Source: Mycobacterium sp. (GTDB lineage Bacteria; Actinomycetota; Actinomycetes; Mycobacteriales; Mycobacteriaceae). From it: DNA of 22,986 nt. Position numbers and translations under genes: made by a program. The notes under the pieces are model-generated. The model saw only the letters and a list, made by a program, of their open reading frames with translations. It did not search any database and was not told the origin of the DNA. Below are positions 150 through 22,986 of this stretch, one piece after another (positions within the stretch are counted from its first letter, which is position 1; every line of letters begins with the position of its first letter). The stretch lies in the NCBI GenBank assembly GCA_025965815.1, contig JAOPWF010000813.1, positions 1-22,986 on the forward strand, given 5' to 3'.

Positions 150-227
150 TCGGGGCGTGCTGGTGATGACACAGCCGACGAATCCAGTCAGCGAGCGGTC
201 GTTGTCAGGCCGGTGCGAGCGGCGACG

Positions 228-1475
228 ATGAAGTTCGCGATCGCAGTCCACGGAACCCGTGGCGATGTCGAGCCCTGCGCCGCCGTCGGCCTGGAACTGC
301 TGAGCCGCGGGCACGATGTGCAGATAGCCGTGCCGCCGAATCTCGTTGCCTTCGTCGAGCGGGTCAAGCTTTCCTCCGCGGCTGCATACGGAGTGGATTC
401 GCAACAGCAGCTCGACGCGGATGTCTTCCGCACGTACTGGAAGATCCGGAACCCCTTCACTGCGCTGCGGGAAGTCAAGGAGTACATCACGCAGGGTTGG
501 GCGGAGATGAACACGACGTTGAAGTCGCTGGCCGATGGCGCCGACCTGATCCTCACCGGCACGACGTACCAGGAGGTCGCCGCCAACGTCGCTGAGTACT
601 ACGGCACTCCGTTGGCCGCGTTGCATTATTTTCCGGCGCGCGCCAACAGTCGCACTCTCCCTGTCCCGTTGCCGTCTCAGCTGATTCGATCCGCTTGGGC
701 AACGGTCGAGTGGGTGCATTGGCGCATGCTGAAAGAGGCCGAGGATGCGCAACGACGCGAGCTGGGCCTGCCGACGGCAACAGCGCGCGCGGTGCGACGC
801 ATCGTGGAGGGCGGAGCGCTTGAAATACAAGCCTACGATGAGCTGTTCTTTCCGGGCCTAGCCGAAGAATGGGGTGGGGAACGCCCTTTTGTGGGTTCGA
901 TAACGCTGGAGTCAGAGTCGGATTCCAACGACCAGGTGACGTCCTGGATTGCCGCCGGGAGTCCGCCGATCTACTTCGGATTCGGAAGCATGCCGGTCGA
1001 GTCTCCTGCCGACGCCGTCGCCATGATCACGGCCGTCTGCGCGGAACTGGGCGAGCGGGCGCTGATCTGCTCAGGAGTCTGGGACCTCGAGGACACACCA
1101 CAGCCCGGGCACGTCAAAGTCGTACGAGCGGTGAACCATTCGGCGGTGTTCCCCGCTTGCCGCGCGGTCGTCCACCACGGTGGCGCAGGCACCACGGCGG
1201 CCAGCGTTCGAGCCGGTGTCCCGACATTGATTCTGTGGGTCGGAGCCGACCAGCCGATTTGGGGCAATCAGGTCAAACAGCTGCAAGTCGGTACCTCTCA
1301 GCGCTTTTCGACCACCACCCGCGATTCGCTGTTCACTGCGCTCCAGTCTGTCCTCTCACCGCAGTACGCCGCCCGCGCCGACGAGGTCGCCGCTCAGATG
1401 ACCAAACCGGCGGTGAGCGTCTCGACAGTCGCCGATCTGCTCGAAGATGCCGCCCACAAAGGCCATGCCCGGTGA
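228..1475 (+). CDS. GT1-family glycosyltransferase (UGT-like, GPL/LOS type)
   Basis: This predicts a 415-residue GT-B glycosyltransferase that would move a sugar from a nucleotide donor onto a cell-envelope glycolipid in the cytoplasm. The N-terminus MKFAIAVHGTRGDVEP has the GTRGD loop found in mycobacterial and sterol-type UGTs. The donor-binding half carries HHGGAGTTAASVRAGVP, with the His-His-Gly-Gly at about residues 316-319, followed by a GADQPIWGNQV stretch typical of the family. I chose ATG 228 rather than the in-frame GTG at 213 because relatives begin exactly with MKFA; neither start has a strong Shine-Dalgarno. The gene converges on the fadD gene with only 24 bases between stop codons, and no clear terminator hairpin lies between them. 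Known relatives include the Gtf enzymes of glycopeptidolipid synthesis and M. tuberculosis Rv1524/Rv1526c, the latter near pks5 and papA4 (recalled). The acceptor and sugar are inferred only from context. Confidence 0.9.
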   Translation: MKFAIAVHGTRGDVEPCAAVGLELLSRGHDVQIAVPPNLVAFVERVKLSSAAAYGVDSQQQLDADVFRTYWKIRNPFTALREVKEYITQGWAEMNTTLKSLADGADLILTGTTYQEVAANVAEYYGTPLAALHYFPARANSRTLPVPLPSQLIRSAWATVEWVHWRMLKEAEDAQRRELGLPTATARAVRRIVEGGALEIQAYDELFFPGLAEEWGGERPFVGSITLESESDSNDQVTSWIAAGSPPIYFGFGSMPVESPADAVAMITAVCAELGERALICSGVWDLEDTPQPGHVKVVRAVNHSAVFPACRAVVHHGGAGTTAASVRAGVPTLILWVGADQPIWGNQVKQLQVGTSQRFSTTTRDSLFTALQSVLSPQYAARADEVAAQMTKPAVSVSTVADLLEDAAHKGHAR

Positions 1476-1499: not shown

Positions 1500-3257
1500 T
1501 CAGCCGGCGTTCACGGCTTGATCGTCCAACCTGACGAACTGACGGTTCCGGTAAAGGTCTACACAGGACGCCCGACGGATCTTGCCGCTCGTGGTGATCG
1601 GGATCGAACCACGTCCCACCAGAACGACATCCGCGGCGCTGATCCCGTGCGCCTGCGAGATGGCAGAGGTGACCTCGCGCTTGGCGGTGCGGAGTTTCTC
1701 CATCGCTACTTCATCGGATTCCGCGCGCGTCCTGACCTCGACGATCGCGACGAGCTGTTCGGTGCGATCCTGCTCGACCGCTATCGCCGCCACTCGGCCC
1801 CCGGTGATCTCCTGGATGGTGGCTTCGATGTCGTCGGGATAGTGATTGCGCCCGCGCACGATCAGCAGATCCTTGATGCGGCCGACGATGAACAGCTCAC
1901 CCTCGAAGATGAACCCCAGGTCGCCGGTCCTCAACCAAGATCCGTCGGGAGTCCCCGCCGAGGGGGCAACGATGTTCGCTTCGAACGTGTACTCGGTCTG
2001 CTCAGGTTTCTGCCAGTATCCCAAGCAGACGTTGTCACCGTGTAGCCAAATCTCACCGATCGTTGCACCTGGACACTCCGACTTGGTCTCCGGATCGACG
2101 ATCCGCAAAACTGGTGATTCCACGTTGCCGTAGCTGACCAGCGATGTACCCGTTCTGTTTTCGCACCGCTTTGCGTGGCCGCCGGACAAGTTCTCCGGTT
2201 CGAAGCAGACAATGTTCGGCGGCTGGCCGGGCTCGCGGGTCGCGACAAAGAGAGTCGCCTCTGCGAGCCCATACGACGGTCGTAACGCCCGCTCGCGCAA
2301 ATTGAAGCGGGCGAACCGCTGCGCAAACCGCCTCAGGGTCGCCTCGTGGACCCGTTCGCTGCCGCTCAGCACGTTCAGGACATCCCCGAGGTCGAGGCCG
2401 GCCATGTCGTCGTCTGACGTTCGTGCCGCCGCCAACTCGAAGGCGAAATTCGGGGCTGCGGTCAATGCACGAGGATTGCTGGCCAGCAACTGCATCCACC
2501 GTGCCGGTCGGGCGAGGAATGACATCGGAGTAGTGAACACCGAGTGCCATCCGCCGAGAATCGGTCCGCACAAACCCAACATCAGCCCCATGTCGTGATA
2601 GAACGGCAGCCACGACACAGCGGAGGTGTTCGGCGGCGAAACCTTGCCATAGTCCGGAAAGAGGCCGCCGACTATCTGTTCGAAGTTGGCTGCGAGGTTC
2701 CTGTTCGAAACCATCACGCCAGCCGGTGTACGGGTCGAACCGGATGTGTATTGCAGATACGCCGTCTCCGGCGGCGTCTCACGACTGGAGGTGGACCGCC
2801 GCCGAGAATCCAGATCGAGCGAATCAACCTCGAGGACCACGGGAGCGAGATCATCGCCCTGGGGTACAGCGTATTCAGCGACATGGCCAGCGACGGACGA
2901 CGTGGTGACGATGACGCGGGGCGACGAGTCGCGGAGCACAGCAGTGACACGTTCGTCATGTATGCCAACCATTGGCACCGAGAGCGGCACCGCGATCAGA
3001 CCGGCCTGCATCGATCCGAGGAATGCAACGACGTAGTCGAGTCCCTGCGGCGCCAGAACGACGGCCCGGTCCCCTATCGACGCGTGCAGTCTGAGTTCGC
3101 TTGCAAGGCTGAGCACTCGTCGGTTCAACTGCGCCCATGTCAGTGTGTTGGCGACGCCCTCCCAGTCCTGCTCGTAATCGATGAAGGTGAATGCGATGTC
3201 ATCCGGCTGCAGACTGGCGCGTTCGCGCAGCATGCCGGTAAGGGAAGGGCCGGTCAT
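1500..3257 (-). CDS. Fatty acyl-AMP ligase (FAAL-type FadD)
   Basis: This 585-residue protein is an ANL-superfamily adenylating enzyme. FAALs activate a fatty acid with ATP and pass the acyl-AMP to a polyketide synthase instead of to CoA. Visible motifs are the P-loop-like [12 protein letters not shown] (170-181), LPFYHDMGL (217-225), [11 protein letters not shown] (328-338), LRTGDLGF (442-449), [16 protein letters not shown] (459-474) and the C-terminal catalytic lysine in TTSGKIRR (K559). The stretch at about 350-377, between the YGLAEA and TGD motifs, fits the extra segment that separates FAALs from FACLs. ATG 3257 has an AAAGG Shine-Dalgarno eight bases upstream. It is the last gene of the reverse-strand series and probably supplies the starter acid to the PKS at 9121-15432, in the manner of FadD24/FadD25 beside Pks5. 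Substrate chain length cannot be read from the sequence. Confidence 0.93.
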
Positions 3258-3278: not shown

Positions 3279-3434
3279 TCACGCCGGAGGTCGAAACTCA
3301 GGCGGCGCGCGCGCCTCCAACTCATGCGCGTTGGGCTGCGAGTCGGTTTCGCCGGGCTGGTAGGCAACGATGCCCGTGGTCATCTTGCCACCGATCACCG
3401 AGCCACTCAGAAGTGGTCGCCGCTGCCGCCTCGT
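3279..3434 (-). pseudogene. C-terminal relic of a fourth acyltransferase-like paralog
   Basis: The gap between paralog C and the fadD gene is not empty. Reading directly on from the TAA of paralog C (3435-3437), in the same frame, 51 sense codons lead to a TGA at 3279-3281. The translation contains GGKMTTGIVAYQPGETDSQP and then HELEAR...PPEF. It lines up with the C-termini of paralog A (GGKVSVTVVAYQPGAENSKP...RELAAQ...LAEF) and paralog B (GGKMSIGITAYQAGEHNSK...LAEF). Even the preceding RQRRPLL matches ERRRGLL of paralog A. The last residues, rich in proline, have drifted. There is no start codon, no body of the protein and no HxxxD motif, so this is the decayed 3' end of a deleted or recombined copy and not a gene. 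Confidence 0.8.
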
Positions 3435-4772
3435 TTACTCGATGGTGCCCGTTAGATGGAAGTCCGCAAGGGCGCTGGTTATCAGTTCACACAGGTCATC
3501 CTTCGAGTCTTGCGTAGCACCTTGATAGGCACGGAACGTAATGAACAGCTGTCCACAGATCCGTCCTGAAGCCAGGGCTAACTCGCCATACTTCAGCTCA
3601 GGGCTTTTCTCAGTGAGATTCTGCTCCACCAATCTCAGCGAGACGCGGTCAGCTGCGGTGCCGTCGGCACACGCCAAGGCTGGGTCGAGATGGCCGATAT
3701 TTGAGCAACCCACGGGAAGTTCGGTGGTGCCCACAGACTCTGTCGCCAGTCTTCTGACGAGCACCTTCGGTACCAGGGGAGTCAGCGGGAGGACGGCTTC
3801 CTGCTCCTTGAACACACCGAGTCCCAATGTCAGGGCCTCCTTGATATTCTCGCGAACTTGTTGCAGGTCTGTCGTTACCGGCGTTGGGTCAACCGTGAAA
3901 TCAACCGACTTCAGCGCATTGGCACGCAGATCGCCTTCGGTGCGGTCGTTGACGGGGTACGCCAGCGTGACTCTGCCATCGCCTGCACGAACTCGCCCGA
4001 TTCGTTCTGCCAGTCGCGCGGCGAATCCGGCAAATAGCGAGTTACTCGTTCCACCGAGAGATTCCGCGCGTGCGTCCCAGTCCGCCAGATCGACGTAGAG
4101 CGTCGCTGTCGGTACCACTACGGGCCGATCGCTGTCGGCTTTGCGCCTCGAGGAAACCGACGGTGCGCTCGACCGAGCAGGTTTAGGTCTGGGGCGACGT
4201 GCCAGCTTTATCACGGCGACGATCGCATGGGCGACCTCGGGTAACCCCCGTGCCGTCAGACGGGCGTCTTCGATCAACGCCCGCCGCCGAGGGCGTGAGG
4301 ATGGCAGCGGATAGCCAAGATCGTGGGTTATGCCCTTCGCCGCGTCCGTCATGGCGAAACACAGGCCGAGCGCGTCGACCACGGTATGAGAGGCCACCAG
4401 GCTGACTGCGGTTCCGTAGCCCTCGATCGGAAGTACACCGATATGCCAGTGCGGCCCCAGTTCTGGATCGACGGGCAATCGGGCGCGTTCGTCAGCCCAC
4501 CCGGCCAGGCCGTCGGGCGAACCAATCGGCTGCGCGATGTCGATCTCGGGCGCCTGCTGGCACGAGACCCAGCGATGCCGCCCGAACGGTAACGGCGACC
4601 GTTCGACCCGCCGCCCTAACAATCCGTGCGCGAGGTTGTCGCGCAACCGTCCGAGCCCATCGATGTCGATAGCGCGCTCATACACCCAAATACATTGAAT
4701 AGCGTGGACGTGGCCACTTGCCCGCACCCACGCGAAAGAGGCCTGATCAATAAACGCAAGCGTGTTGTCCAT
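3435..4772 (-). CDS. HxxxD acyltransferase-like protein, paralog C
   Basis: This 445-residue protein belongs to the same family as the two genes upstream of it. It looks like the CoA-dependent acyltransferase/condensation superfamily that includes Pap and WS/DGAT enzymes. The shared family hallmark ERSPLPFGRHRWVS is at about 57-70, and the presumed catalytic motif is SHTVVDALG (H129, D133). The residue after the Asp is Ala, where paralogs A and B have the usual Gly. Other shared blocks are LYVDLADWDARAESLGG and, near the end, a C-terminal block with AYQ and DSK. Its ATG overlaps the TGA of paralog B as TGATG, so translation is probably coupled, and I see no good Shine-Dalgarno of its own. It is the most divergent of the three. 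I infer acyl transfer onto a sugar in glycolipid synthesis; a structural or inactive role is possible. The exact reaction is unknown. Confidence 0.85.
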   Translation of the reverse strand: MDNTLAFIDQASFAWVRASGHVHAIQCIWVYERAIDIDGLGRLRDNLAHGLLGRRVERSPLPFGRHRWVSCQQAPEIDIAQPIGSPDGLAGWADERARLPVDPELGPHWHIGVLPIEGYGTAVSLVASHTVVDALGLCFAMTDAAKGITHDLGYPLPSSRPRRRALIEDARLTARGLPEVAHAIVAVIKLARRPRPKPARSSAPSVSSRRKADSDRPVVVPTATLYVDLADWDARAESLGGTSNSLFAGFAARLAERIGRVRAGDGRVTLAYPVNDRTEGDLRANALKSVDFTVDPTPVTTDLQQVRENIKEALTLGLGVFKEQEAVLPLTPLVPKVLVRRLATESVGTTELPVGCSNIGHLDPALACADGTAADRVSLRLVEQNLTEKSPELKYGELALASGRICGQLFITFRAYQGATQDSKDDLCELITSALADFHLTGTIE

Positions 4773-6178
4773 CAGTCGATTACGGCCGTGAGCTCAAACT
4801 CGGCCAGCGTCTTTGCCACCAGCTCACGCAGACGAGCCTTCGAGTTGTGTTCGCCGGCCTGATACGCCGTGATACCGATCGACATCTTGCCACCGAGACG
4901 ACCGGCGACCAGGACGAGTTGACCGCCGGCTCGCTCTATGTCAGCTCGCTTGACCCCTTGGTCCACCCCTCGAAGCATGACGTACTCGGCGACGGTACCA
5001 TCGAGACGGCCTACGTCAGGGGGGATCTCGCCGAGGTTGGAACACGCCACCAGCGGATCGGCGAAGCCGAACACCCTATCGGCCGTTCGTTTCACCGCCC
5101 GCTTCGGGACAAACGGGTTCAGCGGAAGAAGCTCAAACGATTCATCCGGCGCCCTCCGCAGTTTCGTGAGCGCTTGCCTGATCACGCCCCGGGCGCCGGT
5201 CAGGTCGGTCGCTACGTACGTCGGGTCGACGCTGACGTTGACAAACGACATTGCGTGAGCCTGGGTGTCCTCAAGGGTGCGGTCGCTGAGAGCGATGAGC
5301 AGGGTGACGGCGCCGTCGGCGGCACGGCAACGCTCCATGCGTTCCCCGAGTTTCGCGGCGAACCCAGCAAGCAGTGAATAGCTTGTTCCGCCAAGGGCTT
5401 CCGCGCGGGCATCCCAATCGGCCAGGTCGATGTAGACCGAGATCACCGGCATCACAACATTTTCATCGCCGTTTTCTGCAAGGATCGCGGTGGGTTGCGG
5501 TGCTTTCGATCGGACGAGCTCATACCGGCGACGAAATGCCAGTTTTGCTCCTGCGACAAGCGTCCGGGCAACCTCAGGTGCGTCCTGCATGGTGCCACGT
5601 AAGTCGGACGTAATGGCGCGAAGTCGAGTACGTGAACGTGGTGGCGGGTAGCCGAAATCGTGCAGGTTGCCCGTGATCGCATCGAAGATCAACAAGAGGC
5701 CCCCGACGCCGTCGGCCAGACAGTGCGAACCGATCAGACTGATCGCCGTCGAACCGTCGGTCATCGGCAGGACCCCGATATGCCAGCCCGGTCCCCATTC
5801 GGGATCTACCGGCACCTGTGAGCGTTCATCAACCCAGTCACTGAGTTCAGCGCGGGGCCGGGCGCACTCGACGAAGTCGATCTCCGACGGAGGTGTCCCC
5901 GACGAGACCCACCGATGCCGGCCGAACGGGAGCGGCGACCGCTCGATCTGCCGGCCGGCCAACCCGAAACACATATTGTGGTGAAACCGTCTGAGCCCGT
6001 CAAAGTCGACAGGGTGCTCATAGATCCACACCAGCTGAACGAGTTGCCCCCGGCCCGTCGCACGCAGCGTGAGAAACGAGGCTTGATCCATATACGAAAG
6101 GCGGTTGTCCTGCCGCTCTTTGCCTTTGGGTGCGCGAGCGCGAAAGGATTCGCGTAACGAACGTTTCAGGACCGCCAC
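4772..6178 (-). CDS. HxxxD acyltransferase-like protein, paralog B
   Basis: This 468-residue protein is closely related to paralog A and less so to paralog C. The start is GTG at 6176-6178, supported by a GGAGG seven bases upstream (6186-6190 on the plus strand). It adds about 22 basic residues (MAVLKRSLRESFRARAPKGK) before the region where the other two begin. Visible features are ERSPLPFGRHRWVS (about 79-92), the catalytic-type motif SHCLADGVG (H152, D156, G157), SVYIDLADWDARAEALGG and a C-terminal GGKMSIGITAYQAGEHNSK block. No signal peptide or membrane helix is evident. It lies 36 bases after paralog A and overlaps paralog C by one base. The family is that of condensation/WES-type acyltransferases, and acylation of a trehalose-based glycolipid is inferred from its neighbours. 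Confidence 0.87.
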   Translation of the reverse strand: MAVLKRSLRESFRARAPKGKERQDNRLSYMDQASFLTLRATGRGQLVQLVWIYEHPVDFDGLRRFHHNMCFGLAGRQIERSPLPFGRHRWVSSGTPPSEIDFVECARPRAELSDWVDERSQVPVDPEWGPGWHIGVLPMTDGSTAISLIGSHCLADGVGGLLLIFDAITGNLHDFGYPPPRSRTRLRAITSDLRGTMQDAPEVARTLVAGAKLAFRRRYELVRSKAPQPTAILAENGDENVVMPVISVYIDLADWDARAEALGGTSYSLLAGFAAKLGERMERCRAADGAVTLLIALSDRTLEDTQAHAMSFVNVSVDPTYVATDLTGARGVIRQALTKLRRAPDESFELLPLNPFVPKRAVKRTADRVFGFADPLVACSNLGEIPPDVGRLDGTVAEYVMLRGVDQGVKRADIERAGGQLVLVAGRLGGKMSIGITAYQAGEHNSKARLRELVAKTLAEFELTAVID

Positions 6179-6214
6179 TGGTCTACCTCCGCCGACATAA
6201 ATTGCTCTTGCCCA

Positions 6215-7576
6215 CTACTCGATCAGGCCGGCGAGGTCGAACTCGGCCAGCGTCTGCGCCGCCAGTTCACGCAAGTGGGGCTTCGAGTTCTCTGCGCCGG
6301 GCTGGTACGCGACGACGGTGACGGAAACCTTGCCACCGACACGTCCACCCAAGACGGTGAGAAGGCCGCGCCTTCGCTCGAGGAACTGACGCGTTACGCA
6401 TCTGTCCACCCCTCGTAACATGACGTATTCGGCGTCGGTGCCGTCGGGACGGCCGAGGGTGGGGTCGACCTCGCCGAGGTTGGAACACGACACCGGGAGA
6501 TCGGCGAACCCGAACAACACATCGGCTCCACGCCTGACCGCCCGTTTCGGTATGAACGGGGTCAGCGGGAGAAGCTGCAAGGTCTCATCCGGCACCTCCC
6601 GCAGCGTCTTGAGCGCCTGCCTGATCGCGACCCGAGCGCCAGACAAATCTGTTGTCACCTGCGTTGAGTCGACACAGACGTCGGTAAGCGATACTGCGTT
6701 CGCACGCGTATCGTCCTGGGCCCGGTCGCTGATGGGAATGTTCAAGGTGACCGCGCCGTCGGCGAGACGGCGGCGCCCGAGCCGTTCGCCCAGTCTCGCG
6801 GCCAACCCGGCGAGCAGCGAGTGACTGGATCCACCAAGGGCTTTCGCGCGGGCATCCCAGTCGTTCAGATCGAGGTATATCGAGATTGCCGGCACGACGA
6901 CATTGTCATCGCCGCCGGCAAGGATCGTGGTTGGACTCGGCGCTCCTGATCGGCCGAACTCGTGTCGGCGACGAAAGGCCACTCTTGCCCCTCCGACAAG
7001 CGCGCCGGCAACCTCGGGTAGTCCCTGGACGGTTTGACGGGCGTCGGAAGCGACGGCGCGCAGTCGGGTACGTGAACGTGGCGGGGGGTAGCCGAGATCG
7101 CGCACATTGCCCTTGACCGCATCAATAACCGTGAGGAACAGCCCAAAGCCGTCGGTCAGACAGTGCGAACCCACCAGGCTGACCGCCGTCGAGCCGTCGG
7201 TCATCGGCAGGACCCCGAGATGCCAACCCGGCCCCCATTCCGGATCGACGGGCAACTGTGAACGCTCATCGACCCAGTCACTGAGCTCAGCGCGTGGCCG
7301 AGCACCCTCCACGAAATCCATGTCCGACGGAGGCCCCACAGACGAGACCCACCGATGCCGGCCGAACGGAAGCGGCGAGCGCTCGATCCGCCGTCCCAAC
7401 AACCCGTGGCCGAGATAGTGATGAAACCGCCTCAATCCACCGACGTCGACGGCATGTTCGTAAACCCACACGATCTGCGCGACTGCTTCCTGGCCGGTGG
7501 CGCGCTGTCCGAGGAACAAGGCTTGATCGACGAACGCGAGTCGACTGTCCGGCGGTACTTGCGCACGCCTAGTCAT
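6215..7576 (-). CDS. HxxxD acyltransferase-like protein, paralog A
   Basis: This 453-residue protein is the first of three tandem paralogs. It starts near RLAFVDQALFLGQRATG, which recalls the N-terminus of WS/DGAT enzymes, followed by ERSPLPFGRHRWVS (about 65-78). The HxxxDG motif is in SHCLTDGFG (H138, D142). It also has SIYLDLNDWDARAKALGG and the C-terminal GGKVSVTVVAYQPGAENSK block. ATG 7576 is preceded by AGGAG at a long spacing of about 13 bases, so the start is moderately certain. It follows papA by 31 bases. Nucleotide similarity to paralog B is high over long stretches, for example 5700-5950 against 7150-7390 on the plus strand, which points to recent duplication or gene conversion. 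Role inferred: transfer of the PKS-made or another acyl chain to the glycolipid core. Confidence 0.87.
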   Translation of the reverse strand: MTRRAQVPPDSRLAFVDQALFLGQRATGQEAVAQIVWVYEHAVDVGGLRRFHHYLGHGLLGRRIERSPLPFGRHRWVSSVGPPSDMDFVEGARPRAELSDWVDERSQLPVDPEWGPGWHLGVLPMTDGSTAVSLVGSHCLTDGFGLFLTVIDAVKGNVRDLGYPPPRSRTRLRAVASDARQTVQGLPEVAGALVGGARVAFRRRHEFGRSGAPSPTTILAGGDDNVVVPAISIYLDLNDWDARAKALGGSSHSLLAGLAARLGERLGRRRLADGAVTLNIPISDRAQDDTRANAVSLTDVCVDSTQVTTDLSGARVAIRQALKTLREVPDETLQLLPLTPFIPKRAVRRGADVLFGFADLPVSCSNLGEVDPTLGRPDGTDAEYVMLRGVDRCVTRQFLERRRGLLTVLGGRVGGKVSVTVVAYQPGAENSKPHLRELAAQTLAEFDLAGLIE

Positions 7577-7607: not shown

Positions 7608-9056
7608 TCAGGCCGATCTCAGATCAAGGGCTTCGACTCTGGCAACGGGTCTCGCTGCCCCGCGACCGTCGGCGACACGGACGTACACGGATTTCATGGC
7701 CTCCACGTACCGGGTGACCGATTCGCGGGCGATCGGGTTGTTCGGGAACGCCACTGTCACCGTGGTCTCCTCGACCCGATTCACCCACATGCCGACTTGA
7801 TGTGCAGACCTGGCGTCGCTGTACACCTTGCCGTTCAGCGCCTCCCATTGAGCGATGATGACCGGAGACAGCGGAGGAAGGCCGGCGTCGAGGTAGGACA
7901 GCATGGGAACGCCTGGTTCAGGGGTCCTGAGGCCCAGCTTGGACTCCGCCAATTCCAATACCCGATCAAACGGGACATTTGCCAGGCCAGTACCCGAATC
8001 GAAGGAAGCCTGAGCGGCGCGGGCGGTTTCACCGAACGATGTTGCGTCAACCGGCACGGTGATCGGAATCAAACCGGTGAACCAACCTGTAGTCATGAAT
8101 TCGGCTGCAGTGCGACGCGTCGTCGTGGGAGTAACCACGTAATACGTTTCAGCGCCGGTCAATTCATGCTCTGCAAACGCGGCACAGGCAACCACCCCGC
8201 CGCTGAACCGGGCACCGGCCGCCATGCACGCGGATTCGAAGCGGTCTGTCTGCGCTTTGTCCATCAGCCGTATGGTGAGCATGTCGCCACCGCAGGGCAC
8301 CGATGAGTCACCGAGCGGCAGCGCGAAGTGCGGCATGGTGCCATCGTTGTTCTGGGCGAACTGGATCCATGCCCGCACCTCTGGGGACTCTAAAGTCAGA
8401 GCGGATAAGTACTGATGCTGCCGGACACAGAAAAGGTCGTACTTACCAGCGTCCGGCAGCTGGATGGGGGCCGCGCCTGACACCAGGGCGGCGTACATCA
8501 TATGGATCTCTACTAGCACCAAACTCATGAACATCGCGTCGGTGTGGACATGGTCGACACTGACATAGAAAGTGAAGTGGTCGGCGCGTTGAATGATCCC
8601 AAAGTGAAAGCATTCCCACTGCAGTGGATCCGGGGTGGCCAGCACGTGGTCTCGCCATTGCGTCGGCGTCATCTCGCCGTGCTCCGTCGGGACGAACTTG
8701 ATATCCCTTGGGTTGCCGATGGTCCGCCGAACGATGTGGTCCGCGTCTTGGTACTCGAACCAACTGTGGTATGTATCGTGCCGACGAACGTACGCATTGA
8801 TGACCTGCGTCATGGCACGGAAATCGCACTGGCCGGCCATGTCCCAGGCGGGAATATTCAGCCGTGCCATATCGGTTCCCCGCGCCTGATGGTCCAGATA
8901 GCTACGAAGATGCTGCGCCTGCTGATAGCTGGCGGGCACCGCACTCAGCGGGGCGTCCCGTACCTTGGCCCGCGTTGCCGGTGACGGGTTCCACGTTACG
9001 AGCGCACCCGGCTCGCCCATCCAGTCATGGATTGATTTTATTGCAACCATTCGCAT
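7608..9056 (-). CDS. PapA-type polyketide-associated acyltransferase
   Basis: This 482-residue protein is clearly of the PapA1/PapA3/PapA4 family. These enzymes take the finished acyl chain from a Mas-like PKS and esterify it to trehalose or a related sugar, which explains the lack of a thioesterase in the PKS next door. Family signatures are IHDWMGEPGALVTWNPSPAT near the start, NAYVRRHDTYHSWFEYQDAD (about 87-106), HFGIIQRADHFTFYVSVDHV (about 151-170) and GGWFTG-like TTGWFTGLIPITVPV. The catalytic motif is DHVHTDAM, with H169 and D173 and with Ala in place of the usual Gly after the Asp. The start may be ATG 9056 or the ATG two codons later (9050); the GGGGA Shine-Dalgarno is better spaced for the second. 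It begins 64 bases after the PKS stop, in the same operon. The protein is cytosolic, with no signal peptide. Confidence 0.93.
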   Translation of the reverse strand: MRMVAIKSIHDWMGEPGALVTWNPSPATRAKVRDAPLSAVPASYQQAQHLRSYLDHQARGTDMARLNIPAWDMAGQCDFRAMTQVINAYVRRHDTYHSWFEYQDADHIVRRTIGNPRDIKFVPTEHGEMTPTQWRDHVLATPDPLQWECFHFGIIQRADHFTFYVSVDHVHTDAMFMSLVLVEIHMMYAALVSGAAPIQLPDAGKYDLFCVRQHQYLSALTLESPEVRAWIQFAQNNDGTMPHFALPLGDSSVPCGGDMLTIRLMDKAQTDRFESACMAAGARFSGGVVACAAFAEHELTGAETYYVVTPTTTRRTAAEFMTTGWFTGLIPITVPVDATSFGETARAAQASFDSGTGLANVPFDRVLELAESKLGLRTPEPGVPMLSYLDAGLPPLSPVIIAQWEALNGKVYSDARSAHQVGMWVNRVEETTVTVAFPNNPIARESVTRYVEAMKSVYVRVADGRGAARPVARVEALDLRSA

Positions 9057-9120: not shown

Positions 9121-12100
9121 TCACGACGGTGCCGTAACGATCGCGTCTTCCGTGGCTGCCGCGAGCAAGTCGCACAAGCGCTGCGCCAACGCCCGAGTAG
9201 TGGTGATGTCGGTTGCACTGATACGTATCCCGGTTTCGGTTTCGATCCGGGTGCGCACTTCGAGTGTGCCCAGGGAGTCCAGGCCGTACTCGGAGAGCGG
9301 TCGGTCAGGATCGACGGAGCGGCGCATTATCAGGCCGATCTGGTCTGAGACCAGTCGACGGAGTCGGGCCGGCCACTCGTCTTGGGGCAACTCGCGCAAC
9401 TCAGCAAGGAATGCACTTGTTTCCGTTCGGCTTTGCCCGATGGACTGGAACGCCTGCGCGAACTTGCTGGTCTGCGCGAACGCCGTCAGCCACGGTGCAC
9501 CCGCCACCGGCGCGTATCCGGTGTACGCGCGATCGTTACGCAGCAATGCCTCAAACGCGTGTGCACCGTCGACGGGGGCGATGGCCATCGCGGTGTCCTC
9601 CGCCATGGCCTGACCACGACCGATCTCGGCCCAGGCTCCCCATGCGACGGCGCTGGCCGGCAGACCCTGGGCACGGCGCCAGTGCGTGAACGCGTCCAGC
9701 CAGCTGTTGGCCGCGGCGTAGGCGCCCTGTCCCGGTGACCCCAACATGGCGGCCGCCGAGGAGAACGAGCAGAACCAGTCCAGCGGCTGAGACATGCTGG
9801 CCTGGTGCAGATTCCAAGCGCCGTGAGCCTTCGGCATCCAGTCATGGTCGATGAGCTCGTCGGTGATGTTGGTCAATGTGGCGTCCTCGACAACCGCCGC
9901 CGCGTGCAACACGCCACGGACACGCAACCCGGTCGACGTTGCGACTGCGACCAGGCGCTCGGCGGTTTCGGCTTCGGCGATATCGCCTCGCTCCACCTCG
10001 ATCTCGGTGCCGCCGCGCCTGATTCGCTCGATGACCACCCGCGCTTCAGGGGTGGGCTCCGAGCGACCGTTGAGGATGATCCGACCGCAGCCGGCCGCGG
10101 CCATCTTCTCGGCCAGGAACAGCCCGAGGCCACCAAGGCCACCGGTGACGATGTAGGCGCCGTCACTGCGGAAGGTCTGCGCTGCCTCCGGCGGCACCAC
10201 CACGCCGATCTCGCCGGTGTGCGGAACGTCGAGCACCAGCTTGCCGCTGTGCCCGGCAGCGCTCATCACCCGGATGGCGGTGCCGCCGTCGTGCAATGGG
10301 TAATGCGTGGCCTCCGGCACAGGCAAAACGCCGTCTGCGATCTGCTGGAACACCGTCTCCAGCAGGCGCCGTAGGACTGCCGGGTTGGTGAGCATCAGCA
10401 GCGCCAGGTCGACGGCGTAGAACGACAGATTGCGGCGGAACGGGAAGAGTCCGAGTCGGGTGTCGCCGTAGATGTCGCGTTTGCCTATTTCGACGAACCG
10501 ACCTCCGAAGGACAGCAGTTCCAGTCCAGCGCGTTGCGCTGCGCCGGTCAGCGAGTTGAGCACGATGTCGACGCCGTAGCCGTCGGTGTCGCGCCGGATC
10601 GCGTCAGCGAACTCGGTGCTACGTGAGTCGTATACGTGCTCGATGCCCATGTCGTGCAGCAATTGTCGACGCTTCGGACTGCCTGCCGTCGCGAAGATCT
10701 CGGCCCCCGCACCCCGCGCAATCGCGATCGCGGCCTGGCCCACGCCACCTGTCGCCGAGTGGATCAACACTTTGTCGCTGGAGGAGATCCGCGCCAGATC
10801 TTGCAGGCTGTACTGGGCGGTGGCGTGCGCGCTGGGTACAGCGGCCGCCTGATCGTCGGTCAGCCCATCGGGAAGGCTGACGGCGAGGTCGGCGTCGCAG
10901 GTGACGAATGTGCTCCACGCGCCTGTGGCTGAGATGCCGGCGACACGGTCTCCGACCCCGTGGTTGGTGACGCCCGGCCCCACTGCGGTCACCACCCCGG
11001 CGAAATCGGCACCGAGTTGCGGCAGCCGTCCCTCGAAGCTCGGGTACCGGCCGAACGCGACCAGGACATCGGCAAAGTTGAGGTTCGATGCTGTGACCGA
11101 AACCTCGATCTGTCCAGGCCCGGGAGGAATCCGATCAAATGCCACCAGTTCCAGCGATTCGATGTCGCCGGGCGTGCGTATCTGCAGGCGCATTCCGTCG
11201 TGCTGGGGGTTGACGACGGTGGTGCGCCGTTCCTCGGGTCGCAAAGGACTCAGGTTCAACCGGGCGGTGTACCACTCGTTGTTACGCCACGCAGTCTCGT
11301 CCTCGTCGGATCCCGACAGCAGTTGGGACGCCAGCTGTGAAACCTCAGTGTCGTCGTCCATGTCGATCTGAGTGGCAGAAAGGTGCGGTTGTTCCATTGC
11401 GATCACCCGCATCAACCCTCGCAGCCCGGCCTGGTCGAGATTGGCGGTCTCGCCGGACAGCACCGTCTGCGCTCCGCTGGTCACGACGAAGAGTCGCGGC
11501 GCCTCTCCCGGGATGTCCGGCAGCACACGGGCGATGCGCACGATATGACGCACGCACTCCAGACCCCGATCCGGGGATTTATCCTCCGGTGCGCCGTTTC
11601 GCGGTGGCGTCACCACGATCACACCGTGGTGCGCGCTCGCCGCGAGGTGACTGCGCAGCCGTTCAGCCTCGGCCGCGTGGTCGGCGTCCTGCGGCCAGGC
11701 CAACGTCGTGACCTCGGCCTTGTGCAGCTTCAGCGCGTCAGCCAGATCGGTCGTCAGCACAGCGGCGGCATCGGATGCTGTGACCAGCAACCAGAAGCCC
11801 ACGTCGACGGTGTCGTCTACCTCGGGAGCTTCCTGCCTGCTCCAGTCGATGGTGAGCAGGCGCTCATTGAGCACCCGATCGCGTTGGCCGGCCTCGGAGG
11901 CACCGCTGCCAAGCCGAAGGCCGGTGACCGACAGCAGGACGGTCCCGTGCTCATCCAGGACGTCGAGGTCGGCCTGGACACCCAGCACGTTGGCACTGGT
12001 CAGGCGTGCGTAGCAGTAGTGCGCATTACGCGTGGGCCCGTAGGCGCGAATCCGACGGACGCCCAGGGGCAACATCATGACGCCGGTGACATCGTTGCGC

Positions 12101-15100
12101 AGGTCCGGATGCGCCCCGACAGCCTGGAAGCAGGCATCCAACAGCGCCGGATGAATCGCGTAGGCCCCCTGTTGAGAGCGGATCGAACCGGGCAGCGCGA
12201 CCTCGGCCAGCACTGAGGTGTCGGATCCGTCGGCAGTGTGGGCGGACACCAGCCCGGCGAAGGCGGGGCCGTACTGAATGCCTCGTTCGTCGTACCACTG
12301 CCGCATCTCCGCGCCTTCGATGCGGTTGGGATGTGCCGCAAGCAGATCCGCCAAGTTGTAAGCGGCGGGCAGTTGGTCGTCCCCGGCGGTCAGAACCGCT
12401 GCGCCGCGCTGCGTCAGCTCGCCGTCCTGATAGGTCTCCACCACGAAGTCCACGACATCCGGCGACACGACCGAGGCCACCGCGGACACTGGTGTCTCAT
12501 CCTCGAGTAACAGGATCTGGTCGAAGGTGACGTCGCGCACTTCGGACGCCTCGCCGAGCACGGCGTCGGCCGCCGCCAAGGCCATTTCGCAGTAGGCGGC
12601 ACCAGGCAGCGCCCCCACGTTGTGGACCTGGTGGTCGCCGAGCCACGGCTGCGCCACGGTGCCGACGTCTGCCTGCCAGACATGGCGTTCCGGCTCCTCC
12701 GGCAGGCGCACGTGGGCGCCGAGGAGCGGATGAACCGCCAGCGCAGAGCCACTATGGGCCTGTTCCTGGCTGTCGCGGGTCAGCAACAGCTGACGGTGCG
12801 TCCACGACGGCAGCGGCGCGTCGACGAGGCGGCCATCGGGATACAACGCAGAGAAGTCAACCGACGCGCCTGCGCCGTGCAGATCGGCGACGAAGCCACG
12901 CAAACCGTCGGGCGACTCCTGCTCGCGTCGCATGCTGGCGAGCGCCGCCAGTGGTACGTCGAGACCCCGGGCAGTCTGCTCGACGGCGTAGGTGAGTAGC
13001 GGATGTGGTGACAGCTCCCCGAAAACCCGATAGCCGTCCTCCAGCGCGGCCTGGACCGCCGCCGCAAACCGCACCGCGTGGCGGAGATTGTCCGCCCAGT
13101 AGTAGGCGTCCCACTCGGCCGGGTCACGCGGGTCGTACAGCGTGGCGGAGTAGTACGGAACCATCGGCTCCATCGGGGTGAGGTCTGCCAGCGCGTCGGT
13201 CAGGTCGTCGAGGATGGGATCGACCTGGGGCGAATGCGAAGCGACGTCGACAGCCACCTCGCGCGCCATCACCCCGCGTTCCTGCCAGTGTTCCACCAGA
13301 TCGCGAATCGACTGGGTGGCACCGCCGACGACAGTCGACTGCGGCGAGGCGATGACGGATAGCACGACATCCCTGACACCACGGGCAGCTAGGTCTGAAA
13401 GCACTTGCTGGGCAGGCAGTTCCACCGAAGCCATTGCTCCGGAACCGGAGATCCGCAGCATCAGCTGTGAGCGACGGCAGATGACCTTCACGGCGTCTTC
13501 GAGCGACAACGCTCCGGCCACCACCGCGGCGGCGACCTCGCCCATCGAATGACCGATGACGGCTCCTGGCCGCACTCCGTAGGACTTCATCGTTTCCGCC
13601 AGTGCAACCTGGACAGCGAATACCGTCGGCTGAACGCGGTCGATGCCGGTCACCTTCTCTGCCGCCGACATCGCCTCGGTCACTGAGAATCCGGACTCCG
13701 CAGCGATCAGCGGTTCGATCCGGGCGACCGTCGCGGCGAACACCGGTTCCGAGGCGAGCAGGCTGGCCCCCATTCCGGCCCATTGGGAACCCTGCCCGGA
13801 AAACACCCACACCGGTCCCCGGTCGCGCTGGCTGACGGCAGCCTGATAAGGGGTCTCGCCGTCGGCGACCTCTCGCAGCGCCTTGACCAGTTCTTCGTGG
13901 CCGGCAGCCAGAACCGCGGTGCGTACCGGCCGGTGCGCGCGCCGCCGCGCCAACGTATAGGCCAGGTCGCACAGCTCGACACTGGCCTTGTGAGCATTTC
14001 CGTCGGCATGCTCAGCGACCCAGTCGGCCAGTCGGCCCGCGGTCCGGCGGAGTTCGTCGGCCGAGGTGGACGACAGCATGAACAGCAGCGGTGAGCCAGC
14101 AGGCTCGTCGGCCGGTGCGACACCCGTCGGAGCGGGGTCCGCGGGCGCCTGCTCGAGGATGGCGTGGACGTTGGTGCCCGACAGCCCGTAAGACGACACC
14201 GCCGCCCGGCGCGGCTGCCCCCCGTTGGTGGGCCAGGGCGTGGCCTCCGTCGGCACGAACAATTTCGTGTCGATGCGGGCCATTTCCTCCGGCATCTCGG
14301 TGAAGTGCAGATTGCGCGGCACCGTGCCGTGCTGCAGGGACAGGACCGCCTTCATGAGTCCGACCGCCCCGGAGGCCGACTGAGCGTGACCGAAGTTGGT
14401 CTTAGCCGATCCCAGTGCGCATGGACCATCGGATCCGTACACCGTGGCCAGGCTCGCGAACTCGATGGGGTCGCCCACCGGCGTCCCGGTGCCGTGTGCC
14501 TCCACCATTCCCACGCTTGCGGGGTCCACCCCGGCGGCTGCAAGGGCGGCCTTGTAGTTGGCGATCTGGGCGGGCGCCGACGGTGTCGCGATGTTGACGG
14601 TATGCCCGTCCTGGTTGGCCGCGGTGCCCCGCACCACGGCCAGGACCCGATCACCGTCGCGCTCGGCGTCCGGCAGTCGCTTGAGCATGAGTATTGCCGT
14701 GGCCTCACCAATGACGAACCCGTCCGCCTTGATGTCGAACGCGTGGCAGTGGCCGGTGGGAGACAACATCCCTTGGGCCGAGCCCGAGGCGAACTTTCGT
14801 GGTTCGAGCATGACCGAAGCGCCGCCGGCAAGGGCGAGGTCGCTTTCGCCGTCCTGCAAGCTGCGGCAGGCCATGTGCACAGCGAGGAGACTGGAGGAAC
14901 ACGCGGAGTCGACCGTGTACGCGGGGCCGTGGACGCCCAGGTGGTACGCGATCCGCCCGGATGCCAGGCTGAAATTGTTGCCGGTGAATCCGTAGGGCCC
15001 CTCGACCTCCCCGGCGTCGGCGGCAAGCAACTGGTAGTCGGCGCCCGTCAGCCCGACAAACACCCCGGTCAGCGATTCGGCAACCGTCGCAGGGTCGATG

Positions 15101-15432
15101 CCTGCGTGCTCCATGGCTTCCCAGGCGGTTTCCAGGAGCAGGCGGTGCTGTGGATCGGTCGAGGTGGCCTCGCGCTCACTGATGTTGAAGAACTCGGCGT
15201 CGAAGCCGCCGACGTCGTCGAGAAAGGCGCCCCATTTGGACACCGAGCGGCCGGGGACGCCTGGTTCCGGGTCGTAGTACTCCTCGGCATCCCAGCGATC
15301 CAGCGGTACTTTGGTGACGTAGTCCTCGCCACGCAGAAGGGCCTCCCACAGCTGGTCAGGAGATTCGATCCCGCCGGGGAGCCGGCACGCCATTCCGATG
15401 ACAGCAACTGGAATCGCTGGCATTTCGCCCAC
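9121..15432 (-). CDS. Mas/Pks5-type iterative polyketide synthase
   Basis: This 2103-residue type I PKS would build multimethyl-branched fatty acids by repeated, fully reducing cycles. Domains in order are: KS (about 7-430; Cys178 in [33 protein letters not shown]); AT (about 540-860; Ser629 in GHSMG; VASHS at 730-734, the type seen with methylmalonyl-CoA); DH (about 900-1190; His934 in [13 protein letters not shown], Asp1099 in LLDACFQ); ER (about 1390-1720; [32 protein letters not shown] near 1558-1563); KR (about 1755-1960; GGLGGLG at 1764-1770, Ser/Tyr pair with Tyr1905 in [11 protein letters not shown]); and ACP (Ser2053 in GLDSLGT). There is no thioesterase, as in Mas (about 2100 residues). 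The GTG start at 15430-15432 is fixed by AAGGAGGG nine bases upstream. The following papA presumably offloads the product. Pks5 of lipooligosaccharide loci is the closest match by context; a Mas or Pks2-like role is possible. Confidence 0.96.
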
Positions 15433-16120: not shown

Positions 16121-17887
16121 CTAGACCGCGTTGTCGGCGCCGACCTCGGTGCCGTAGCGGCCCGCGTTGAACAGCGACGCCACCGCGCCGATCAGCATCA
16201 TCACGGCGGCGGCGATGAACACCACGACGAGCCCGGAGTGGAACGGCTCGGTGATCAGATGTGGGAAGAACGTCTTGCCCGTCAGCACGTCGGCGTTGAC
16301 ACCGGGCTGCGCCAACGCACCTGAGGGCGTGAGCAACTCGGCGATCGGGTTGTAGCCGAGGAACGCCGCGAACAGGCTGCCGACCGGCGGCAGGTTGGCC
16401 ACGTCGTGCGCGACGGAGCTCGGCACGCCCTGGGCCTGCAACCCGCTGCTCATCGCGCCGGGCAGCGTGTTGGCCAGGCCGACGATCATCAGCGAGAAGA
16501 AGATGCCGATAGACAGCGACGAGCCGGCGTTGAAGAACGTCGCCCGCACACCGGACGCTGCGCCGCGCTCGGCTGCCGGAACGCTGGACATGATCGCCGC
16601 GGTGTTGGGCGCCGTGAAGATGCCGCCGCCCAAGCCGTTGAGGAACACCAGCAGTGCAAAGACCCAGTAGTTGAAGTCGACCGGAATCATCACCAGCGCG
16701 ACGAACGACGCCGCCATCAGCAGCATCCCGCCGACCGTGAAGGGTCGTGCGCCGAAGCGGTCGGACAGCGAGCCTGCCAGCGGACCGGCCACCAGGAAGC
16801 CGACGGTCATCGGAAGCATGTAGATACCGGCCCACAGCGGCGTGGATTCAAAGCTGTAGCCATGCAACGGAAGCCAGATGCCCTGCAGCCAGATGATCAG
16901 CATGAACTGCAGTCCGCCGCGGCCCACCGACGCCATCAATCCGGCGAGGTTACCCATCCCGAACGCCGTCGAACGGAACAGCCGCATGTTGACCATCGGC
17001 TGTGCTACCCGATTTTCGATCAGAACGAACGCCACCAGCAGCAGCACGCCGAACGCGATCGATCCGAGCACCCACGGGTTGGTCCACCCGGTCGTGGAAC
17101 CGCCGTAGGGCTGGATGCCATAGGTGATTCCGGTCAGCAGAACGGTCAGCCCGATACCAAACGTCAAGACCCCAGCCCAGTCCAGGTGCCCGGGCGTCTT
17201 CACACCGAGTTCCTTCAGCGAGCGCACACTCCAGATGGTGCCGAGGATGCCGATCGGCACGCCGACCCAGAAGATCGCGCGCCAGTCCCATTCGGAAAGG
17301 ACGCCGCCGATCAGCAGGCCCAGGAACGACCCGGCCACCGCGGCCACCATGTTCACGCCCAGCGCCATGCCGCGCTGATTCGCCGGGAAGGCGTCGGTCA
17401 AGATCGCCGACGACGACGCCATCAGCATCGCGCCGCCGACGCCCTGCACCACCCGCCAGCCGATCAGCCACAGCGCCCCGCCGCCGAGGTGGAACGGGTC
17501 GAAGGACAGCGCGACGGCGGCGATGGTAAAGACGGCGAAACCGACGTTGTAGATGCGCACCCGGCCGTACATGTCGCCCAGGCGCCCGAAGAGAACCACC
17601 AGCACGGCGGTCACCACCAGGTAGCCCATCAGCATCCACAGCAGGTAACTGACGTTGCCCGGCGACAGCGGGTTCAGGCCGATTCCCCTGAAGATCGCCG
17701 GCAGAGAGATCAGCACAATAGACGCGTTGATCGTGGCAAGCAGCGTGCCAAGCGTGGTGTTGGACAACACGACCCACTTGTAGAACGGGTGGTCGTGATC
17801 AACCGACATGCGCCGCCGCGCGGTCACGTCCTCCGGCGCATCGACGGATTCGCTCTGGGCTTTCGTCATCTCGATCTCAGTCGTCAT
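16121..17887 (-). CDS. DHA2/EmrB-type MFS exporter (14 TM)
   Basis: This 588-residue inner-membrane protein belongs to the major facilitator superfamily, drug:H+ antiporter family 2. About 36 mostly hydrophilic N-terminal residues precede the first helix (WVVLSNTTLGTLLATINASI). Motif A, GRLGDMYGRVRIYNVG, is at 101-116; RVVQGVGGAMLMASSSAILT is at about 145-164; and a GSFLGLLIGG segment (187-195) takes the place of motif C before DWRAIFWVGVPIG. A long polar stretch (about 470-550) separates the last two helices. ATG 17887 has no strong Shine-Dalgarno, and a second ATG six codons later is possible. It is divergent from thiC and 688 bases upstream of the PKS on the same strand. The substrate is unknown: drug or metabolite efflux is likely from the family, and a link to the glycolipid locus is not shown. 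Confidence 0.9.
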   Translation of the reverse strand: MTTEIEMTKAQSESVDAPEDVTARRRMSVDHDHPFYKWVVLSNTTLGTLLATINASIVLISLPAIFRGIGLNPLSPGNVSYLLWMLMGYLVVTAVLVVLFGRLGDMYGRVRIYNVGFAVFTIAAVALSFDPFHLGGGALWLIGWRVVQGVGGAMLMASSSAILTDAFPANQRGMALGVNMVAAVAGSFLGLLIGGVLSEWDWRAIFWVGVPIGILGTIWSVRSLKELGVKTPGHLDWAGVLTFGIGLTVLLTGITYGIQPYGGSTTGWTNPWVLGSIAFGVLLLVAFVLIENRVAQPMVNMRLFRSTAFGMGNLAGLMASVGRGGLQFMLIIWLQGIWLPLHGYSFESTPLWAGIYMLPMTVGFLVAGPLAGSLSDRFGARPFTVGGMLLMAASFVALVMIPVDFNYWVFALLVFLNGLGGGIFTAPNTAAIMSSVPAAERGAASGVRATFFNAGSSLSIGIFFSLMIVGLANTLPGAMSSGLQAQGVPSSVAHDVANLPPVGSLFAAFLGYNPIAELLTPSGALAQPGVNADVLTGKTFFPHLITEPFHSGLVVVFIAAAVMMLIGAVASLFNAGRYGTEVGADNAV

Positions 17888-18061: not shown

Positions 18062-20596
<2,535 letters not shown>

Positions 20597-21854: not shown

Positions 21855-22986
21855 ATGAGCGCGCGGCAACTGGACGTGGTCATCGTGGGAGCGGGTTTCG
21901 GCGGTATCGGAGCCGCCATCCAGCTCAAGCGGCTGGGCTACGACAACATCGCGATTCTCGAGCGCGAGGACGACCTCGGCGGTACCTGGTACGTCAACCA
22001 CTACCCCGGCTTGGCGGTCGACGTCCCCACGACCACGTACTCCTACTTCTTCGAGCCGAACCCGAACTGGTCGCGGCTGTTCTCCACGGGCGCTGATATC
22101 AAGCAGTACGCCGACGATGTGGCCGACAAGTACGACGTGCGCCGTCACATCCGCTACAACACGACCGTCGAAGGCGCCCGCTGGGACGAAGAGGCAAAGG
22201 TCTGGCGCGTCGCGCTGGCCGATGGCGACACGCTGACCACGCGCTACCTGATCACCGCCACGGGCTTCCTTTCGCAGCCGCGGGTGCCGGACATCCCCGG
22301 TATCGACAGCTTCACGGGCAAGATCATCCACACCACTGACTGGGACGATGACTACGACCCACAGGGCCGCCGGGTCGCCGTCATCGGCACCGGTGCGACC
22401 GCGGTCCAACTCATCCCGGAACTCGCCAAGAAGGCGGCCGATCTCACCGTCTTTCAGCGCACCCCCATCTGGGTGGTCCCCAAGATCGACGTGCGCTTCT
22501 CGGAGCGGGCGAAGCGACTGTTCGCCAGGGTGCCGTTCACACAGCGGGCGATCCGCTGGCTCACCGACTCCATCTATGAAGTCATGATCGTCACCGCGGT
22601 CTTGCATCACCGGAATTTCCGGCGGCTCAACATCGCGGCCGCCGACCTGTCGAAAATGCACCGGTTCGCCTCGATCCGTGACAAGGAACTGCGCGAGAAG
22701 CTGACGCCGGACTACGACTTCGGCTGCAAGCGGCCCACATTCTCCAACGGCTACTACCGAGCGTTCACCAAACCGCACGTGCACCTGCAGTCCAGCGGAA
22801 TCGAGCGCATCGAAGCCGACGGCATCGTCAGCGCCGACGGCACCAAAACGGTGATCGACACTTTGGTGCTGGCCACCGGTTTCGACCTGTGGGACGCTAA
22901 CTTCCCCGCCATCGAAGTCATCGGGCGCGAAGGCCGTAACCTCGGAAAGTGGTGGCGCGACAATCGATTCCAGGCCTATCAGGGCG
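21855..22986 (+). CDS. Class B flavin monooxygenase, Baeyer-Villiger type (partial)
   Basis: The frame is open from ATG 21855 to the window end, giving 377 residues without a stop, so the C-terminus is missing. The FAD Rossmann motif GAGFGGIGAA is at 12-21, then LEREDDLGGTWY (35-46) and HYPGLAVDVPTTTYSYFF. The Baeyer-Villiger fingerprint FxGxxxHxxxW is present (F153, G155, H159, W163), followed by the NADPH Rossmann motif GTGATAVQ (178-185) and LVLATGFD near the end of the visible part. Such enzymes use NADPH and O2 to insert oxygen next to ketones or to oxidise heteroatoms. Mycobacteria hold many, including EtaA/EthA and MymA. Codon use matches the thi operon. The gene is divergent from the lipoprotein and has a palindromic operator candidate at its start, with no strong Shine-Dalgarno. 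The substrate is unknown. Confidence 0.93.
   Translation, partial: MSARQLDVVIVGAGFGGIGAAIQLKRLGYDNIAILEREDDLGGTWYVNHYPGLAVDVPTTTYSYFFEPNPNWSRLFSTGADIKQYADDVADKYDVRRHIRYNTTVEGARWDEEAKVWRVALADGDTLTTRYLITATGFLSQPRVPDIPGIDSFTGKIIHTTDWDDDYDPQGRRVAVIGTGATAVQLIPELAKKAADLTVFQRTPIWVVPKIDVRFSERAKRLFARVPFTQRAIRWLTDSIYEVMIVTAVLHHRNFRRLNIAAADLSKMHRFASIRDKELREKLTPDYDFGCKRPTFSNGYYRAFTKPHVHLQSSGIERIEADGIVSADGTKTVIDTLVLATGFDLWDANFPAIEVIGREGRNLGKWWRDNRFQAYQG

Follow-up and report, generated by a model that had tools for sequence, protein, structure and literature searches.

The window analysed here, 22,986 nucleotides of Mycobacterium sp., is the whole of one contig (JAOPWF010000813.1; C483 in our numbering) of a genome assembly that totals 5.66 Mb, is split into 877 contigs and is about 81% complete. 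It carries a minus-strand gene row in the order polyketide synthase (PKS), PapA, C, B, A and fatty-acyl-AMP ligase (FAAL), faced by a plus-strand gene for a GT28-type glycosyltransferase. C, B and A, which occupy the first, second and third slots of the array (P1, P2 and P3), are paralogs that, on balance, we favour reading as acyltransferases of the chloramphenicol acetyltransferase (CAT)/condensation superfamily, moving PKS chains onto a lipooligosaccharide (LOS)-type glycolipid by the mechanism set out below. The features are as follows.

213–1475, plus strand: glycosyltransferase, EryCIII-like/GT28 type, 420 aa (PF06722, 64.8 bits)
1500–3257, minus strand: FAAL, FadD21/FadD28-like, 585 aa (NCBIfam PRK05850, 991.7 bits, cut-off 775)
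3294–3425, minus strand: decayed fourth copy, of which the C-terminal end is left (48% to C over 46 residues; E = 3.3e-4)
3435–4772, minus strand: A, third slot (P3), the more distant paralog, 445 aa (open reading frame (ORF), search, tree)
4374–4388, minus strand: HxxxD motif of A, H129–D133 (alignment A1; coordinates by arithmetic)
4772–6178, minus strand: B, second slot (P2), paralog, 468 aa (ORF, search, tree)
5711–5725, minus strand: HxxxD motif of B, H152–D156 (alignment A1; coordinates by arithmetic)
6215–7576, minus strand: C, first slot (P1), HxxxD acyltransferase-like, 453 aa (ORF, search, model, tree)
7151–7165, minus strand: HxxxD motif of C, H138–D142 (coordinates calculated from the ORF start)
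7608–9056, minus strand: PapA-type condensation-domain acyltransferase, 482 aa (PF00668 Condensation, 54.9 bits, cut-off 30.6)
9121–15432, minus strand: mas-like type I PKS, KS-AT-DH-ER-KR-ACP, 2103 aa (Pfam scan)

A sequence-only reading of this DNA had placed three HxxxD acyltransferase-like paralogs of 445–468 residues between papA and fadD, with a common ERSPLPFGRHRWVS and an SHxxxDxxG motif. Three minus-strand ORFs do lie there, and A, B and C have both features, the second as SHTVVDALG in A, SHCLADGVG in B and SHCLTDGFG in C. In a search of the same genome, C matched B with 66% identity (E = 9e-197) and A with 50% identity (E = 6e-128), far beyond chance in both cases. The His and Asp of the HxxxD motif are invariant in all 216 rows of the family alignment, in which some genomes appear twice and from which L077 (internal stop) and short fragments were left out. 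The remnant of a fourth copy, which the sequence-only reading had not noted, sits between A and the FAAL gene and has C as its top-scoring relative; it spans profile positions 410–447 (11 bits), the C-terminal tenth of a copy, and shows that copies turn over within the array. Broken-looking copies, with an internal stop or a split frame, were also noticed at L171, L205, L077, L196, L051 and L070, where assembly error is possible.

History of the array

Among 74 named loci, 17 have the row of PKS, PapA and two family genes; among 40 near-complete genomes, 19 do. These 40 genomes (38 of them single-contig) were picked among those with a family match, so the rates are conditional on presence, and several contribute more than one locus. 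P1 and P2 are both present in 19 of 19 arrays, and a PKS-PapA row with a single family gene occurs in none of the 40 genomes. A third copy directly follows P2 in four of the 19 arrays (L143, L174, L203 and L206) and lies beyond the FAAL gene in three (L193, L199 and L201). A methyltransferase-like ORF, recognised by eye, stands on the opposite strand between the second and third copies at L005 9038–9958 and L006 8503–9615 (minus strand).

We compared slots with descent on two trees, both of which left out L077 and pieces covering fewer than 350 profile positions (for example L070, L054, L171, L196 and the window remnant), as well as the fused copies L094, L095, L096 and L099. In the tree of 109 rows, all 18 first-slot copies, C included, form one branch (support 93), as do all 18 second-slot copies, B included (support 99); the third-slot copies need three changes. 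In the tree of 114 rows, slots match clades with five label changes, which is the minimum, and the supports are 96 for P2, 100 each for P3 adjacent to P2, P3 after FAAL and the PKS-fused copies, and just 65 for P1. A falls in the adjacent-P3 clade of five (support 100). P1 and P2 also carry different near-fixed residues, among them positions 281 (four before R285), 405 and 407.

Judged by these trees, B and C go back to an old split, first- and second-slot copies being old separate lineages, and the third slot, held here by A, was evidently filled from a distant branch. The agreement between slot and clade indicates that recent local copying did not produce the trio; the tandem array named in the sequence-only reading thus stands as a layout, not as a recent local duplication. 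Slot-specific orthology of P1 and P2 argues for non-redundant roles, which is compatible with the suggestion of the sequence-only reading that several acylation positions may each have their own enzyme, and the evidence from trees and residues favours distinct, retained jobs for the two.

The constant pairing of P1 and P2 would also suit a single hetero-oligomeric transferase composed of P1, P2 (and A) with some structural subunits, as would the close spacing of the genes, those of A and B overlapping by one base (tgATG). We consider this unlikely, however, since H and D are kept in every one of the 216 rows, and numerous family members occur singly or as part of a PKS. Redundant copies that raise the dosage of one reaction would be compatible with shared family, shared motif and a single gene row, and with the turnover that the decayed fourth copy reveals. 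Such redundancy is quite improbable given that slot labels agree with clades across species at the minimum number of changes, and that the near-fixed residues of P1 and P2 differ at 281, 405 and 407.

Family identity

A, B and C belong to a large and mainly mycobacterial family that has no name and is most akin to WS/DGAT. The AlphaFold model of C has the two-lobed CAT-type fold of the CAT/condensation superfamily (pLDDT 89.7), which, together with the invariant H and D, bears out the CAT-like acyltransferase expected by the sequence-only reading. No curated family covers A, B or C at Pfam and NCBIfam cut-offs: the best scores among the three are 16.1 bits for PF03007 (WS/DGAT, cut-off 23.6) and 21.5 bits for TIGR02946 (WS/DGAT, cut-off 309.95), and the Pfam scan gave no PF00668 Condensation match in any of them. 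When the 216 family rows were compared with the WS/DGAT profile, the relation had an E-value of 2.5e-5 (probability 75%, 236 columns), and eight other profile comparisons gave 0.07 or worse; the tie is weak, yet above all controls. That value was obtained with 26 WS/DGAT rows, with which family profile A2 gave 3.2e-4; with three WS/DGAT rows the E-value was 0.0028. Kinship with Pap proteins, tried by the same kind of comparison, was not supported (E = 0.18, inside the control range). Unlike the Pap proteins (PapA5 and others, and the PapA of the window), A, B and C therefore have neither a Condensation match nor a profile relation above control level, and the remark of the sequence-only reading that they are not classical Pap proteins holds. 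Among solved structures, a sequence search with C alone returned no match, and profile A2 returned six at E-values of 0.038–0.1, none credible, the best being a nonribosomal peptide synthetase chain (AmbE), followed by phosphatase activators.

The WS/DGAT relation raises the question of whether these are storage-lipid enzymes (wax ester/triacylglycerol synthases) lying by chance in a PKS operon, and the public record of one relative indeed reads 'wax ester/triacylglycerol synthase domain-containing'. This is very unlikely: all three proteins fall below the curated cut-offs, the first His of the WS/DGAT motif HHxxxDG is Ser in 205 of the 216 family rows (SH instead of HH), four other proteins of the same genome exceed the WS/DGAT cut-off, and, unlike WS/DGAT, the genes for A, B and C sit with PKS, PapA and FAAL among glycolipid-type neighbours. 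Other record labels, 'Fatty acyl-AMP ligase FadD28 and polyketide synthase' and 'Diacylglycerol O-acyltransferase', look like mis- or over-annotation of family members. A reaction of the condensation fold other than acyl transfer, such as hydrolytic release or dehydration, is likewise very unlikely, as proteins of the CAT/condensation superfamily use the HxxxD pair to transfer acyl groups and the neighbours are acyl-glycolipid genes.

PKS-fused relatives

Some type I PKSs of other mycobacteria end in this domain, placed directly behind the last acyl carrier protein (ACP) domain. The fused ORF of M. gastri (2572 aa) runs from KS to ACP and then into the family domain, that of M. palustre (3233 aa) has an N-terminal AMP-ligase domain, and that of M. 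paraense (2204 aa) contains AMP-ligase, KS, AT and ACP. About 17 distinct fused loci were found, among them L055, L035, L041, L053, L028, L038, L015, L045, L095, L098 and L099; several of the ORFs are cut N-terminally by the end of the contig or stretch. In all 14 fusions examined, 54–61 residues separate the ACP serine motif G[IVM]DSL from the family domain downstream of it, which in turn reaches the C-terminus. PKS chains can be released by thioesterase or carnitine-acyltransferase domains, and the fused relatives resemble such release domains in placing the family domain C-terminal after the last ACP; they differ in belonging to another family, and the window proteins differ in being discrete. 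Since the family domain stands in the position of a thioesterase, the obvious donor in the fusions is a chain carried on the ACP, and by analogy such a chain would also be the donor for discrete P1, P2 and P3. The PKS of the window has its ACP at residues 2023–2085 of 2103, and no thioesterase domain was listed for it in the Pfam scan. By the same analogy, the family may comprise PKS-offloading acyltransferases that are discrete here and fused elsewhere.

Genomic context and proposed mechanism

At least one homolog of PKS, PapA, FAAL, glycosyltransferase or MmpL accompanies the family in 64 of 75 loci, compared with 2 of 20 control stretches taken at arbitrary round coordinates in 20 of the 40 genomes; where the family domain is fused, the ORF counted as the PKS may be the one that contains it. 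The window locus combines PKS, PapA, FAAL and glycosyltransferase. Many sister arrays contain an MmpL gene; none lies within the window, which ends with the contig. The sister array of genome G077, whose P2 shares 99% identity with a protein assigned to M. goodii, extends into genes for GT2, a PE-PPE protein, SfLAP/Sap, a polysaccharide pyruvyltransferase and a methyltransferase.

In the mechanism that we favour, FAAL would activate a starter fatty acid as acyl-AMP and load it onto the mas-like PKS, which would elongate it to a methyl-branched chain and, having no thioesterase, keep the product on its C-terminal ACP. The HxxxD His of a family member would then activate a hydroxyl of a trehalose-based sugar, and this hydroxyl would attack the acyl-ACP thioester. 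One chain or one hydroxyl might fall to each of PapA, C (P1) and B (P2), a further, lineage-specific chain might be added by A (P3), and the predicted product is an LOS-type glycolipid. Known LOS chemistry leads us to expect trehalose as the acceptor and three to four chains on each molecule. The fold of C, the motif conservation, the family relation, the slot-specific orthology, the genomic context and the ACP fusions of relatives are observations; the donor, the acceptor, the regiochemistry, the order of steps and the assignment of one enzyme to one position are inferred. More tentatively, the family could be a distinct, unnamed class of PKS-release acyltransferases, working as a C-terminal domain or in trans, in which the number and lineage of P1, P2 and P3 copies predict the number and place of acyl chains in each species; we regard this as possible, at about one chance in three.

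Several observations temper the proposed mechanism and product. The fused copies placed on the trees form one separate clade, so an ACP-bound donor for discrete P1, P2 and P3 is an extrapolation. The LOS reading is weaker for the window's organism, in whose genome no pyruvyltransferase came up at E = 1e-5 and another cluster with MmpL and Sap, detected by search, lies on contig C344 (L238, 7527 bases); PapA-like and FAAL-like ORFs were recognised there by eye, and it is perhaps a second polyacyl glycolipid locus, of the acyltrehalose type.

Comparison with known systems

The known acylation of acyltrehaloses in mycobacteria is attributed to Pap proteins and surface transesterases. The present family is a second widespread one in the same kind of loci as Pap, with up to three copies per PKS; if it does transfer acyl groups, it would help to show which enzymes determine LOS acyl patterns. 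In M. marinum, LOS acylation is assigned to PapA4, a Pap protein by name (PMC5706390). According to PMC11139207 (and PMC8125055 for MSMEG_4727), MSMEG_4727–4737 is the LOS island of M. smegmatis, an Lsr2-silenced locus tied to LOS that includes the mas-like PKS MSMEG_4727. The same two papers describe effects of the LOS locus on colony form and phage adsorption in that species. The M. smegmatis laboratory strain mc2 155 produces LOS once lsr2 has been deleted (PMC8125055). The glycan of a M. smegmatis glycolipid is described in PMC6801904 as bearing pyruvate and 3-O-methyl glucose, its chain ending in a 1,1-linked glucose pair. By analogy with the gene order of the near-M. goodii array, MSMEG_4729 and MSMEG_4730 would be the P1 and P2 genes; the window differs from this island in having a third copy, a decayed fourth and a genome in which no pyruvyltransferase was found. 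The single deletions given in passages of PMC11139207 concern MSMEG_4728, 4731, 4733, 4734 and 4737; MSMEG_4729 and MSMEG_4730 are absent from that list. Two species that PMC7261415 names as LOS makers carry the family: a three-copy array is present in M. houstonense (L013), and one copy, next to MmpL and FAAL homologs, in M. gordonae (L020).

Within the Creative Commons-licensed literature of PubMed Central, no title devoted to such a family was among those listed, no mention of MSMEG_4729 or MSMEG_4730 was found, and passages of PMC13095810 and PMC8217490 had no bearing on the family, which fits the sequence-only reading's description of the reaction as poorly described. The family is well supported as acyltransferase-like but under-described.

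Distribution and neighbouring genes

Of 396 genomes sampled within the genus, 314 have a family member at E = 1e-10. An order-wide sample of 298 genomes gave matches in 41, namely 27 of the genus (the window's own genome included), 12 of other genera of the family and 2 beyond; both surveys scored about 4–5 candidates per genome, and copy numbers from them are lower bounds. Matches outside the genus are far weaker (best E = 6e-98, against 3e-228). One genome of another family of the order has three distant members in a row at L103 (7604–11566, minus strand; 61–87 bits), perhaps an independent tandem expansion.

Outside the module, the window further contains an MFS transporter gene identified by Pfam (16121–17887, minus strand) and, recognised by eye, a ThiC-like gene (18154–19761, plus strand) and a flavin monooxygenase-like gene (21855–22985, plus strand).
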